From: Clostridiaceae bacterium
GTDB taxonomy: Bacteria > Bacillota > Clostridia > DSM-8532
Assembly: GCA_012728095.1 (NCBI GenBank)
Contig: JAAYFU010000049.1
Coordinates: 1-35,985 of the forward strand
DNA: 35,985 nt
Direction: 5' to 3'
Below are positions 20,106 through 26,083 of this stretch, one piece after another. The notes under the pieces are model-generated. The model worked only from the letters and a program-made list of their open reading frames with translations, was not told the origin of the DNA and did no database searches. Position numbers and translations under genes: made by a program. Each line of letters opens with the position of its first letter. Position 1 is the stretch's first letter.

Positions 20106-21119
20106 ATGGCTATTTTGGTTACCGGCGGAGCCGGATACATCGGCAGCCATACATGCGTGGAACTCTTAAATGCCGGCTATGAAATAATCGTGGTTGACAA
20201 TCTTAGTAACTCTTCCGAAAAAGCTCTTGAAAGAGTCCGGGAGATAACCGGAAAGAAACTGACTTTTTACAAGGCCGACTTATTGGATAAAGAAGCCCTT
20301 GACAATATTTTCAAGAAGGAAAAGATTGACTCCGTCATTCATTTTGCCGGTCTTAAAGCAGTGGGCGAATCGGTTTCAATGCCCCTGAAATATTATCATA
20401 ACAATATCACCGGAACAATTACTCTGTGTGAGGTAATGCAAAAGCACGGCGTCAAGGATATAGTCTACAGTTCATCGGCAACAGTGTACGGAAATCCTGA
20501 AACCGTCCCCATCAGGGAAGATTTCCCTCTGGCGGCCACCAATCCCTATGGCAGGACAAAACTGGTTATTGAAAATCTTCTAAAAGACCTTCATGTGTCC
20601 GATAATTGCTGGAACATTGTTATACTTCGCTATTTCAATCCCATAGGGGCTCATGAAAGCGGAAAAATAGGCGAGGATCCCAAGAATATACCCAATAATC
20701 TTATGCCTTACATTACCCAGGTGGCTGTAGGCAAACTTGAGTATTTAGGCGTATTCGGCAACGATTACGATACCCCCGACGGAACCGGTGTTCGTGATTA
20801 TATCCATGTAACGGATCTTGCGTTGGGACATTTAAAAGCTCTTGAAAAGCTTAAAGAAAAGCCCGGGGTATCAATTTATAATCTGGGCACGGGAAAAGGC
20901 TTCAGCGTCCTGGAAATGGTCAAGAACTTCGAGAAGGTAAGCGGCAGGACCATCAAGTATAGAATACTTCCCAGGAGACCGGGAGATATTGCCATCTGTT
21001 TTGCTGACCCGTCAAAAGCCAAAAAGGAGCTTGGCTGGGAAGCGACAAGGGATATCAATAAGATGTGCGAAGATGCATGGAGATGGCAGAAAAACAACCC
21101 TAATGGCTATAATGATTAG
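20106..21119 (+). CDS. galE: UDP-glucose 4-epimerase
   Basis: GalE interconverts UDP-glucose and UDP-galactose using bound NAD, feeding wall or exopolysaccharide synthesis. It is an extended SDR enzyme of 337 residues. It has GGAGYIGSH (7-15), the catalytic serines S123/S124, Y148 and K152 (NPYGRTK), and the C-terminal [15 protein letters not shown] region. A frame-extending ATG at 20067 exists, but GGAGAGG lies just before the ATG at 20106, which gives the canonical [16 protein letters not shown]. Its end overlaps the end of rng on the other strand by 20 bp, with no terminator between them. Confidence 0.95.
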
Positions 21120-22311
21120 ACAAGGGCAGATTAACCTTTTTTCTTGTTATTTCTATAAGTCCCAGATTAGTCATGCCGACAACCACCGTTGGTATTCTGT
21201 CGGCTTTGACGGCTTCCCGAAGGTGTTGCAGAAGCTGTTGTCGATGTTCCTTTTTTTGCATATCGATAAAATCAACTATTATGATACCGCTTAGGTTTCT
21301 TAACCGGATTTGACGGACCAGAGCATTTGCAGCCTCTATATTTATTTTAAAGACCGTTTCCTCCATATCGGTACTCCCGACAAATTTACCGCTGTTTACA
21401 TCCACAACCGTCATTGCTTCAGTATAGTCGAAAACCAGATATGATCCGTTCTTAAGCCATACTTTTCTTGAAAGAGCCTCTTTAAGAGCGCTTTGAACAT
21501 TATAATATTCGAACATGTCATAACCTTTATTATAGTATTCAACTCTCTCCTTCAGGCCTGATGTTTCATCCCCCAGCATAGAAAGTATTTTTTTGCAGGT
21601 TTCCTTATCGTTTACGATAAAACGGTTGCTTGAGGCTAGATGTTCCCTGACGGCAAGTTCCACAAGGCTTTGCTGTCCGTAAAGAAGACTTGGTGAATTG
21701 ACCTTTTTTTCCTGTTCCCGGATGCTTTCCCAAAGCGATGAGAGGGTTTTGATCTCTTCAATCAATAAATTCTCATTAACATTCTCAGAAGCGGTTCTTA
21801 CAATTATTCCGCAGTTTTCGGGCTTGACCGACTCGACCAGTTGTCTTAATCGTCGGCGTTCTTCCTGATTCTCGATCTTTTTTGAGATCCCTATCGTGCT
21901 GCCATATGGGAAAAAAACCGTGAAACTTCCGGGAATAGAGATAAAGGTGGTGATCCTCGGGCCTTTTTCGCCCATGGCATCCTTTATGACCTGCACAATT
22001 ATTTCCTGCCCCTGCTTTAAAATCTCTGAAATATCCGGAAGATTACCTGAATGAATTGTCTCTGTATCATCTTCGTCAAATTTTTCATGCAAAACGTCTT
22101 TGGCGTAAAGATAAGCATTTCTTTTAAGGCCGATATCAACAAAAGCTGACTGCATTCCCGGAAGGACGCGCATAACCTTACCCTTGTAGATGTTTCCCAC
22201 AAGACTTTTCTCCTGGTTCTTTTCTATCTGTATTTCGGATACCACACCGTCTTCAAGTATGGCCAGGCGGGTTTCACTGACGCCTATGTCAACAAGAACA
22301 TCCTTAATCAT
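21100..22311 (-). CDS. rng: RNase E/G family endoribonuclease, C-terminally short
   Basis: Ribonuclease E/G cleaves single-stranded A/U-rich RNA and matures or degrades transcripts. The 403 residues contain the S1 domain (about 36-115: [24 protein letters not shown]), the 5'-sensor region (IVRTASE) and the DNase-I-like catalytic domain, with metal-binding D304 ([10 protein letters not shown]) and D347 (IIIVDFIDM). It stops directly after [10 protein letters not shown]. The Cys-Pro-x-Cys zinc-link and small dimerisation domain that normally follow are missing. The sequence that would encode them is the end of galE. Its start overlaps the DUF2344 gene by 8 nt, so it belongs to that operon. Confidence 0.9.
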
Positions 22312-23005
22312 TCGCTACCTCAAAAGGGTTTTTCCACTCATTAAACGCTGATGCATAAAGTGCTTTGCGATGCATTGAAAGAATATCAATTTCAAGCTTT
22401 GTTTCCTGGATGAAGGCCTGCATGAAAAGATCGGCTCTTAAATTATTTTCGGCTCCGGCGCTTAAAAACGCTTTAATCATGAATCTGTCTTCAGCTGTTT
22501 TTTCGGCAGACACAGAGTAGATCAACGGTCTTATATTAACTGGCCTGTAACCTTTCTTGGTCTTTTTTTCAATCGTTATATCTTCCCTTGAAAGAAAATC
22601 ATATACCATTGAATGAATTTCAAAAAGGCTTTTGGGCTCTTTGACCTCAAACACTATTTCGTACCTGGCGGCGGTGATTTGGTTCATGATATTGTCCTTT
22701 GTGTTCCGGGGTACCGCTTCCTCCACCTTTAATCCTTCCGGCAATCCTTCATTCATCCTGGCAATAAACTCACAAGGTTCCATATCCTCGGACAATTCTA
22801 TATCAGCATACTCGGATTCACTGGTAAGGCCTATTGACATAGGCAACCCGAAAACCAGCTTTTGCCTGGGATTAAACCCCTGAGTATAGGCTGCCGGGAT
22901 CCCTGCCCGTTTGACAGCACGCTCAAATACTCTCAAAATATCCAAATGTGCAATATATTTTAACTTTTCTCCCCTGGAAAACCTAAACCTCAGTATTTTC
23001 GCCAT
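22304..23005 (-). CDS. TIGR03936/DUF2344 radical-SAM-linked protein
   Basis: This 233-residue protein resembles the family always found beside, or fused to, the TIGR03960 radical SAM proteins. It starts RFRFSRGEKLKYIAHLDILRVFERAVKRAGIPAAYTQGFNPRQKLVFGLPMSIG, the family hallmark. Its function is not established; a tRNA or RNA-modification role has been suggested by context only. It overlaps the upstream radical SAM gene by 23 nt and the downstream rng by 8 nt, so the three are co-translated. The ATG is at 23005. Confidence 0.9.
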   Translation of the reverse strand: MAKILRFRFSRGEKLKYIAHLDILRVFERAVKRAGIPAAYTQGFNPRQKLVFGLPMSIGLTSESEYADIELSEDMEPCEFIARMNEGLPEGLKVEEAVPRNTKDNIMNQITAARYEIVFEVKEPKSLFEIHSMVYDFLSREDITIEKKTKKGYRPVNIRPLIYSVSAEKTAEDRFMIKAFLSAGAENNLRADLFMQAFIQETKLEIDILSMHRKALYASAFNEWKNPFEVAND

Positions 23006-24866
23006 AAATCAAACCCCGCTTTGTCTTGGCGCAGATGCCTGTTTTGTAAACCTGGGCGCCGCATGCTGAACAGCCTGCCGCGCAGTTTCTTGTCAAATCG
23101 CCTTCGTAGGCCTTTTGATTCTCTTTTATCAGGAATTCCTTGGAAATTCCCATATCAATATGATCCCAGGGCAAAACTTCCGAATACTCCCTTTTCCTGT
23201 TGGCATAAAACTTAGGGTCCAGATTGCACTCAGAAAAGGCTTTCATCCATTTGTCAAAGGAAAAGAATTCATCCCAGCCATCAAACTTGCAGCCTTTTGA
23301 CCAAGCGGTATAAATAACCTTTCCCAGTCTTCTGTCCCCCCTGGCAAGCACGGCTTCAATAAAACTTATCCTGGCGTCATGATAATTATACTTGATATTT
23401 CTCGTCCGCTTTCTAATAAGGTCTTTTAAATGATATTGCTTTTTCATCAAAACTTCTATTTCATCCATGGGCTCCCATTGGAAAGGAGTAAACGGCTTTG
23501 GAACAAAACAGGCTGTACTTAAGGTAATATTAAGAAATTTGTCCCGTCCTGAAATATCCCTGCATGATTCAATAAGGTTTATTGAAAGTTCTGAGATACC
23601 CTCAACATCCTCCATAGTTTCAGTAGGCAGGCCAATCATGAAATACAGCTTGACCTGGTTCCAACCGCCGCTGACTGCGAGCCTGACCGAGGAAACAAGA
23701 TCCTCGTTGGTTATTCCCTTGTTAATAACATCCCTGAGCCTTTGCGTACCGGCTTCAGGCGCAAAAGTCAGTCCGCTTTTACGCACCTTGGATACCCTAT
23801 CCATTAAACCGAGAGAGAAATTGTCCACTCTCAAAGACGGCAGAGACAGGCTAATGTTTTCCTTCTCTGTAAACTCTATAAGGTTATTGCACAGGTCAGG
23901 AAGTGCCGAATAGTCACTGGTACTTAAAGATACCAGTGATATTTCATCATACCCTGTGCTTTGAACAGATTTTTTGGCAATTTCACAGAGTTTCTCGTAA
24001 CTTCTTTCCCTGACCGGACGATAAATAAATCCTGCCTGACAGAAACGGCAGCCGCGGATACAGCCCCTGAAAACTTCAAGCATGATCCTGTCATGAACGG
24101 TTCCTATATATGGAACAATAATGTCTTCCGGAAAATCCACCGAATCCATGTCTTTTATAATACGTCTTTTCACACTATCCGGAACATCCGGTGTATTAGG
24201 AGCAATACTCTTTACAGTCCCGTCCTCATTATAAATAACATCATAAAAGGACGGAACATAAACCCCTTCGATACATGAAACCCTCTTTAAAAACTCAGTC
24301 CGGCTTTCTTTCGCTTCTTTCCAGCTTATATATTCATCAACAATTTCATTGATTACTTCTTCACCTTCACCGATGACAAAAAAGTCGAAAAAATCGGCCA
24401 AAGGTTCAGGATTGCAGGCACAGGGTCCTCCTGCGATAACAAAAGGCATTCCTTCGGTACGATCCCTGGCGAATATCGGTATCCGCCCCAAATCAAGCAT
24501 ATTGAGAACATTCGTATAGCTCATTTCATACTGGAGAGTGAAACCCACAATATCAAATTCCGATAACGGAGTATAGGTTTCAAGGGTATACAGGGGCAGA
24601 TCATTTTCCCTCATCAACCTCTCCATGTCAACCCATGGTGCGAAGGCTCTCTCACAATAGACTTCATCTCTTTTGTTCAGGATATGATAAAGGATCTTCA
24701 TTCCCAAGTGAGACATGCCTATCTCGTAATCATCCGGAAAGCAAAAGGCAAAACGCATCTTAACTTTATCAAGGGGCTTTCTTACCATATTCCATTCGTT
24801 TCCGGTATACTTTGCCGGTTTTTCAACTTTTAATAGTATCCTGTCATCTATTTTTAACTGCATCAT
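22983..24866 (-). CDS. TIGR03960-type B12-binding radical SAM protein
   Basis: This protein of about 627 residues belongs to the radical SAM superfamily. The cluster-binding cysteines are C269, C273 and C276 (CIRGCRFC), followed by SLSTSDYSALPDL and the YFMIGLPTETMEDVEG strand. A B12-binding-like domain precedes it (about residues 30-180), and a C-terminal Cys-rich tail (CAAGCSACG) could bind another metal centre. The substrate is unknown. A TTG at 24881 is in frame, but the tandem ATGs at 24866/24863 give the family start MQLKIDDRILLKVEKPAKY. The strong GGGAGGT site lies 27 nt upstream, separated from the ATG by an 18-nt palindrome and a tiny open frame. Confidence 0.92.
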   Translation of the reverse strand: MMQLKIDDRILLKVEKPAKYTGNEWNMVRKPLDKVKMRFAFCFPDDYEIGMSHLGMKILYHILNKRDEVYCERAFAPWVDMERLMRENDLPLYTLETYTPLSEFDIVGFTLQYEMSYTNVLNMLDLGRIPIFARDRTEGMPFVIAGGPCACNPEPLADFFDFFVIGEGEEVINEIVDEYISWKEAKESRTEFLKRVSCIEGVYVPSFYDVIYNEDGTVKSIAPNTPDVPDSVKRRIIKDMDSVDFPEDIIVPYIGTVHDRIMLEVFRGCIRGCRFCQAGFIYRPVRERSYEKLCEIAKKSVQSTGYDEISLVSLSTSDYSALPDLCNNLIEFTEKENISLSLPSLRVDNFSLGLMDRVSKVRKSGLTFAPEAGTQRLRDVINKGITNEDLVSSVRLAVSGGWNQVKLYFMIGLPTETMEDVEGISELSINLIESCRDISGRDKFLNITLSTACFVPKPFTPFQWEPMDEIEVLMKKQYHLKDLIRKRTRNIKYNYHDARISFIEAVLARGDRRLGKVIYTAWSKGCKFDGWDEFFSFDKWMKAFSECNLDPKFYANRKREYSEVLPWDHIDMGISKEFLIKENQKAYEGDLTRNCAAGCSACGAQVYKTGICAKTKRGLIYGENTEV

Positions 24867-24868
24867 TG

Positions 24869-24900
24869 TTAAAGGATGCAATAATGCATCCTGACCTCCC
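24869..24900 (-). promoter_or_regulatory. leader of the radical SAM gene: ribosome site, hairpin and 6-codon frame
   Basis: GGGAGGT (24894-24900) is followed by CA, the palindrome GGATGCATTATTGCATCC (24874-24891, 7-bp arms), then TTTAACA and the ATG. Inside the palindrome an ATG at 24889, 4 nt from the ribosome site, opens a six-codon frame (MHYCIL) ending at TAA 24869, two bases before the main ATG. Confidence 0.6.
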
Positions 24901-24944
24901 GGAATAATTAGTTTACTTATATATTAACCATTTAATCATATTAC

Positions 24945-24973
24945 ATCATATCCTATGAAATATAAAAAGGCAA
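24945..24973 (-). promoter_or_regulatory. promoter of the radical SAM-DUF2344-rng operon
   Basis: -35 TTGCCT (24968-24973), 17-nt spacer, -10 TATGAT (24945-24950). Confidence 0.55.
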
Positions 24974-25093
24974 GTTATGGATATTACATCAAAAAATTAC
25001 ATAATATTCCTTTTGTAATCAAGCAATAATCCTATTTCCCCGCATTTCCCATCCCAAAAACCGTTAATAAAACACGCTGTTAACCAATACATG

Positions 25094-25122
25094 TTGAAAA
25101 AAATTCCGCTACTAAATATAAT
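25094..25122 (+). promoter_or_regulatory. promoter of the orphan histidine kinase
   Basis: -35 TTGAAA (25094-25099), 17-nt spacer, -10 TATAAT (25117-25122), 70 nt before the preferred ATG. Confidence 0.7.
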
Positions 25123-25192
25123 TAGTTGGTAAACAAAACATTTTGGTAAATAACCGGAAATGAATCGTTTGATAGATTGGAGCAGGATAATC

Positions 25193-26083
25193 ATGGGGGA
25201 TATAAAGTATTTATACGAAAGCGAGAATAATTCACATAGTGGCTATCAGCATGTATTATTGAGGGAGCCAATATTCAAATTATCGAATACTTCCGGTCCT
25301 TCTAAAGAAATGCTCTACAATAATATTTATCATGAACTTCGTACTCCTTTAAATGTGGTGTTGGGTTCTATCCAGCTGTTCGAAATGATGGATGACGATC
25401 TTTTCCAGGAATACAATCGCAACAAGTTCAGAGCATACAATAATCTGATGAAGAAGAACTGTTTTCGTCTGTTAAGAGCTATCAACAATCTGATTGATTC
25501 TTCAAAGCTTGATTCAGGAAATCTTAATCTTTACCTGACAAACCATAATATTGTAGGAACCCTGGAAGACATTGTTAACAGCGCGAAGCCTTATGCTGAG
25601 GACAAGGGTTTAAAAATATCTCTGAAAACAAAATATAAAGAGATAGTAACCGCTTTTGACCAGGAAAAATTAACCCGTGCTATTCTAAACCTAATATCCA
25701 ATGCCATCAAGTTTACTCAGAAAGGTCGTATATGCGTAGAAATCAAGAAAAAAGAAAACAGTATTTACATATCTATAAGGGATACAGGTATCGGTATACC
25801 GGAAGATAAAATCGACAGCATTTTTGATCCTTTCATACAGGTAGACAGCTCTTTATCACGAAAATATGAAGGAAGCGGCCTGGGTCTTTCAATTGCAAAA
25901 TCAATAGTTGATCTTCATAATGGGCATATAAGTGTTAAAAGCCGTGTAGGAAAAGGTTCGACATTTACCATAGAGCTGCCGATCAGACTGGTTAAAGAAA
26001 ATGAAGCTCAGCCCTTTTTAGGAAGAGAATTTTTTCCTTACCACGGAGAAAACATAAAAGTAGAGCTGTCAGATATTATATGA
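25193..26083 (+). CDS. soluble sensor histidine kinase, orphan
   Basis: This 296-residue kinase has a HisKA dimerisation domain with phospho-acceptor H47 (IYHELRTPLN) and a HATPase domain: N box N170 (NLISNAIKF), G1 box around D197 (DTGIGIPE), F box FDPF (211-214) and G2 box GSGLGL (227-232). All catalytic elements look intact. No membrane segment and no PAS or GAF domain is present, since only ~40 residues precede the H box, so it is cytosolic and may take its signal from a partner. No response regulator lies nearby. The ATG at 25193 follows GGAGCAGG; an earlier in-frame ATG at 25160 has a poorer ribosome site. Confidence 0.9.
   Translation: MGDIKYLYESENNSHSGYQHVLLREPIFKLSNTSGPSKEMLYNNIYHELRTPLNVVLGSIQLFEMMDDDLFQEYNRNKFRAYNNLMKKNCFRLLRAINNLIDSSKLDSGNLNLYLTNHNIVGTLEDIVNSAKPYAEDKGLKISLKTKYKEIVTAFDQEKLTRAILNLISNAIKFTQKGRICVEIKKKENSIYISIRDTGIGIPEDKIDSIFDPFIQVDSSLSRKYEGSGLGLSIAKSIVDLHNGHISVKSRVGKGSTFTIELPIRLVKENEAQPFLGREFFPYHGENIKVELSDII

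Follow-up and report, generated by a model that had tools for sequence, protein, structure and literature searches.

An obvious question raised by this locus is how ribosomes could reach the start codon of a gene whose Shine–Dalgarno (SD) sequence lies 27 nucleotides (nt) upstream of it. The gene is the first of an operon on the minus strand of the 35,985-nt stretch of clostridial DNA analysed here (the window), and its leader can be read directly as GGGAGGT (24900-24894), CA, the palindrome GGATGCATTATTGCATCC (24891-24874), TTTAACA and the ATGATG that begins at 24866. The features concerned are these:

22983 to 24866, minus strand: B12-binding radical SAM gene of family TIGR03960 (966.6 bits, cut-off 462.3), start ATGATG at 24866
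22304 to 23005, minus strand: TIGR03936/DUF2344 gene, second in the operon (family match)
21100 to 22311, minus strand: Rne/Rng family ribonuclease gene, third in the operon (family match)
24945 to 24973, minus strand: promoter-like TTGCCT-17-TATGAT, with 9 of 12 consensus matches
24894 to 24900, minus strand: Shine–Dalgarno sequence GGGAGGT, read directly; its GGAGG is unchanged in 15 carriers of the layout
24873 to 24892, minus strand: predicted hairpin of 7 bp plus an outer A–U pair, loop TTAT, from folding, from RNAalifold on 15 leaders (same helix) and from pair counts
24869 to 24889, minus strand: mini frame ATG CAT TAT TGC ATC CTT TAA, within and after the hairpin, for which a role is possible and not needed

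The palindrome is a perfect 18-nt hairpin with 7-bp arms and the loop TTAT, and an extra A–U pair (24892 with 24873) extends its stem to 8 bp, with a calculated stability of -11.6 kcal/mol. A sequence-only reading of this DNA had given the coordinates, the 27-nt gap and the 7-bp arms with their 4-nt loop, all of which are as read on the minus strand; it had also pointed out the mini frame, which does read MHYCIL from its ATG at 24889 and whose stop codon is separated by 2 nt from the ATG of the gene. By an open reading frame (ORF) scan the gene is without a near SD, the only distance on offer being the 27 nt. With the hairpin folded, the effective spacing would be 8 nt if all pairs form and 10 nt with the core alone; among the GGAGG sites of this genome, 59 of 61 are at 4-11 nt and 7 nt is the commonest distance, in a scan limited to 16 nt upstream of the start.

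A hairpin-bridged (‘split’) ribosome binding site is probably the right explanation of this leader. The hairpin would fold in the leader mRNA and loop out 18-20 nt, thereby bringing GGAGG to about 8-10 nt from the ATG of the gene and hiding the ATG that is located in its own left arm. A 30S subunit would then pair with the SD across the hairpin and start at ATGATG, and opening of the stem would be expected to lower translation.

The palindrome between SD and start is not due to chance. None of 200 dinucleotide shuffles of the 20-nt hairpin piece folds as well (z -4.06), and a hairpin as strong arises in only 3 of 50,000 shuffled versions of the 28-nt gap; longer stretches of the leader are not unusual in their overall structure (z -1.75 for 71 nt, -1.68 for 75 nt and -0.32 for 131 nt). 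The ORF scan covered 223 mechanically defined ORFs of at least 100 amino acids in the window and 12 further segments of its genome (235,603 bases), with a near SD-like word at some start in 174 of them. This gene is the only one that combines a distant SD, the lack of a near one and an intervening hairpin of -5 kcal/mol or stronger; the three other ORFs with a hairpin of this kind each possess a near SD as well. The motif GGATGCN(3-8)GCATCC occurs at one further site in the genome, with no SD-like word ahead of it by eye.

How widely is this arrangement found? The TIGR03960 gene is present in 31 of 33 genomes of the order, and leaders were compared for 33 genes, i.e. 30 from the family, one from another family of the order and two from the class. 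The sequence of GGAGG, hairpin and start is kept in 15 of these 33 leaders: in 8 of 12 from the window's genus, in all five from a second genus, which includes Thermoclostridium caenicola (L016/L044, leader carried), and in both from a third. The carrier proteins are down to about 62% identical across the three genera. All 15 carriers fall within one clade of 19 rows in the protein tree (support 100/98), on which the hairpin label needs three changes; one gain and two losses suffice. The clade rows without the layout are L006, L018 and L014, where none of the SD-like words sought occurs in the last 45 nt, and L011, which has GGAGG 24 nt from the start and only weak stems (-3.6 or -2.7 kcal/mol). 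Relatives that lack the palindrome and keep the spacing had been named in advance as evidence against a bridge; L011 is at most the one such case. In 11 of the 14 rows outside the clade an SD-like word lies 2-6 nt from the start, and in the other three (L020, L022, L027) none of those sought was seen.

A wider contig scan of 35 loci, many of them already in the set and one (L069) without the N-terminus, gave no GGAGG–hairpin–start leader outside the clade by eye. A covariance model (R1) was built from the 15 leaders and thus matches them by construction; against 34 relatives, its matches at E <1e-4 were all this leader, in 10 genomes, and none of five weaker matches inspected (L087, L088, L089, L090, L092) resembles such a leader. 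Among 391 genomes of the class, searched under stricter filters that lose weak matches, 13 had a match at E 0.01 or better; 11 of these are the leader of this gene within the family, and no further gene leader was found at that threshold. The remaining two are not SD–hairpin–start leaders by eye, one match lying inside a coding frame (L083) and the other being a palindrome without SD (L084). In L050 the gene is preceded at about 40 nt by a strong G+C-rich hairpin with no GGAGG ahead of it; this was not counted and is perhaps the terminator of an upstream gene. In L006 and L018, GTCATyCTGAG-like words, perhaps a dispersed repeat, occur within 120 nt before the gene in place of promoter-like site, SD and hairpin.

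Comparison of these leaders indicates that the stem is under selection, and that it is so as RNA. Counted on the tree of the 15 carriers, the five SD sites have not changed at all and the 12 core sites of the stem have changed five times, each time so that the pair is kept. Changes number 4-5 at each loop-end site, 3-7 at each of the ten positions preceding the SD and, on average, 5.48 at the gene's 87 fourfold sites, none of which is below two; the first six sites after the stem have 1-3 changes each, so the linker is conserved too. The core changes include A to G in L010 and L035 and C to T in L008, and L035 has a compensatory exchange of G–C for A–U, with both arms changed. At the ends of the stem the innermost pair varies among rows (A–U, G–C, C–G or U–G, and unpaired in others), as does the outermost (G–U, A–U or G–C, and unpaired in one row). 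Altogether 91.9% of cells pair, compared with 42-51% when partners are slid, with L016, misaligned by one column, counted as broken. The covariation score is equalled by 6 of 500 shuffles and the number of cells changed on both sides by 10 of 500; two other measures, pairs changed on both sides (97/500) and further pair types (226/500), are not above shuffles. RNAalifold on the 15 leaders returns the same helix. Covariation of the arms in relatives had been suggested as a check when the palindrome was first noticed, and its outcome is favourable: 15 of 19 rows in the clade carry the hairpin, and all five core changes keep pairs.

Conservation of the core sequence goes beyond what pairing by itself would demand. 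An inverted repeat that lies 25-50 nt downstream of a promoter-like site and has strongly conserved half sites is what an operator for a transcription factor would look like, i.e. a palindrome acting in DNA with no role in RNA. We regard this as extremely improbable. The half sites of a usual DNA operator are at a fixed distance, whereas the two core hexamers stand 5-7 nt apart, depending on the carrier; moreover, the single-sided changes are those that leave G–U pairs in RNA, the palindrome sits between SD and start with the effective spacing constant, and the genome holds no second SD-less copy of note.

This effective spacing is 10-13 nt for the core only, and 5-12 nt with all pairs, across the 15 carriers. 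Furthermore, in 7 of 16 leaders with a distant SD an in-frame stop codon lies 0-3 nt before the start position, and no earlier in-frame start is thus possible in those leaders. Translation from the TTG at 24881, which had been put forward as a finding that would speak against the bridge, is therefore unlikely. In L008 the ATG of the stem is in frame with the gene with no stop between them, which would allow a protein with eight additional residues. An exact 14-base pattern for the anti-SD end of 16S rRNA had no match in 15 assemblies, so the case for SD use is built on how many genes have a near SD. Taken together, conserved layout, pair-keeping changes, constant effective spacing and in-frame stops make a hairpin-bridged site well supported, and the bridge proposed in the sequence-only reading is sustained by conservation, pair-keeping changes and constant effective spacing across three genera.

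The mini frame offers another way of bringing ribosomes to the gene. Initiation would take place at the left-arm ATG, and after translating the mini frame the ribosomes would terminate next to the start of the gene and reinitiate there, with the hairpin being secondary or only setting the balance. The start codon of the mini frame is indeed found 5-6 nt after GGAGG in 14 of the 16 distant-SD leaders, in L010 as GTG, and the mini-frame stop falls at -3 to +4 nt relative to the start of the gene in 12 of these 14, with 5.4 expected for random loops, a closure window that was set after seeing the data. Counted by lineage, the same closure is found in 7 of 9 cases against 3.7 expected (P 0.022), and with one row fewer in 6 of 8 (P 0.036). 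On the other hand, the start codon is absent in L035 and L011, the mini frame is in frame with and fused to the gene in L008 and extends 16 nt into it in L009, the peptides are unlike one another, and L035 retains the stem though its mini-frame ATG is lost. With the start codon gone in L035 and fusion in L008, the mini frame is not essential, and such coupling as the main route seems quite unlikely. It is conceivable, if on the unlikely side, that a start site with two routes is under selection, in which the folded leader bridges the SD to the gene while the open one lets the SD drive the mini frame of the stem, which ends at the gene start and hands ribosomes on, so that the ratio of routes sets or regulates expression of the radical SAM/DUF2344/RNase E/G operon. 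A leader-peptide attenuator was considered and set aside: the peptides are unlike, the start codon is missing in 2 of 16 leaders, and no terminator-like site was found on the minus strand of 24700-25250.

Another alternative is that the hairpin is a regulatory RNA element, serving as a temperature switch or as the target of a regulator, for instance in feedback by the RNase E/G family enzyme encoded third in the operon. E. coli RNase E feeds back on its own leader, and the stem sequence is conserved beyond mere pairing. We nevertheless hold a regulatory RNA of this sort to be very improbable. In silico, the stem pairs of the window keep a mean probability of 0.97-0.98 from 37 to 60 °C (0.98 at 55 °C, 0.97 at 60 °C), which speaks against a temperature switch; at 60 °C the weaker stems of L008, L010 and L007 are at 0.73, 0.65 and 0.73. 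In addition, SD and start are outside the stem, whereas an RNA thermometer would hold one of them in a stem that melts near growth temperature, and Rfam covariance models gave no match up to E 1 in the 701 bases of 24600-25300. Feedback by the RNase finds no echo in the operon: the DUF2344 and RNase genes are downstream in 31 of 33 rows, hairpin or none, and were not seen in L018 and L035, where contigs end within the radical SAM gene. With operon content the same with and without it, the hairpin does not track the RNase gene. The suggested response to temperature is accordingly unsupported, and the switch between two alternative leader states proposed at the outset is likewise not supported, given a stem at 0.97 at 60 °C and the missing mini-frame start in L035 and L011, while a role for the mini frame is possible.

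The region upstream gives some indication of how the layout may have arisen. A pair of the form TTG-17-TATnAT lies 56-90 nt before the start in all 15 carriers (in L009 as the second-ranked pair). The search that gave the promoter-like site of the window found 4 such sites on both strands of 24700-25250, with 3.2 expected. Such a pair is also present in five hairpin-free relatives (L019, L020, L022, L024, L027), and was not seen at the usual distance in L006, L018, L014 and L011. The third genus has its promoter-like pair 56-57 nt from the start and the five hairpin-free relatives have theirs at 37-43 nt, a difference of 13-20 nt that is near the length of a hairpin (22 nt in L025 and L035 when every pair is counted). 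We infer a single event in the clade's ancestor, by which a short palindrome came to lie between SD and start; it would then have been trapped there, since its opening would make the spacing overlong and expose a decoy start. The pair is still farther from the start in the two remaining clade genera (61-90 nt), and this history thus fits only part of the data. Between serC and the operon, a sensor histidine kinase gene is encoded on the plus strand (25160-26083); a similar one lies upstream in L003, L004, L007 and L008 only, of 33 loci and within the flanks examined.

Several points count against a bridged site, which we still consider the probable reading of these leaders. Besides the weak stems of L011, the closure of the mini frame, the conserved linker, a core sequence retained beyond the needs of pairing and the two covariation measures at shuffle level, the 15 carrier leaders are related and come from one family, and two share an identical stem and loop. 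The SD itself is also predicted to pair: in silico at 37 °C upstream bases partly occupy that of the window (mean unpaired 0.69), and the corresponding values are 0.02 in L005 and 0.03 in L007.

If the bridge operates as proposed, this would be a cellular case of a bridged ribosome binding site, held by selection across three genera, the bridged sites found in the literature being those of phage T4. The 15 natural variants differ in loops, stem strengths and effective spacings, and this series makes it directly testable how a 30S subunit reads the SD across the hairpin; the same holds for the proposed history of a palindrome that arrived between SD and start and became fixed there. On the practical side, a gene finder could misplace the start of such a gene, here at the TTG at 24881 or at the ATG of the stem.

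A search of the open-licence literature for hairpins bridging SD and start turned up the T4 cases and E. coli thrS only, and other bacterial cases may be in print; no paper on TIGR03960 or TIGR03936 was found there. In thrS the structure is upstream of the SD, unlike in the leader of the window. The ribosome site of thrS is likewise interrupted by RNA structure, which is treated there, unlike here, in terms of structured standby modules of the 5' untranslated region (PMC3936740). Passages of four further papers contained no other bridged case (PMC5434544, PMC4631060, PMC9239205, PMC4611024).

Close parallels are offered by two phage genes (PMC3014915). In T4 gene 38, which had been cited as a precedent from the beginning, an SD–AUG spacing of 22 nt is cut to 5 nt by structure, again located between SD and AUG, but in a phage gene (PMC3014915). 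In T4 gene 25 the spacing of 27 nt is cut to 11 nt by an intervening structure, which was confirmed by DMS probing, and destabilizing mutations lower initiation in both genes (PMC3014915). The likeness to the leader described here would be one of arrangement, and no homology or common origin with either T4 site is claimed. Compared with T4 gene 25, the present case concerns the first gene of a bacterial operon and has a start codon inside the stem, and its bridge is proposed from sequence and comparison. Like the layout described here, the split site of gene 25 and its T-even relatives is shared by close relatives and missing from distant ones (PMC3014915).
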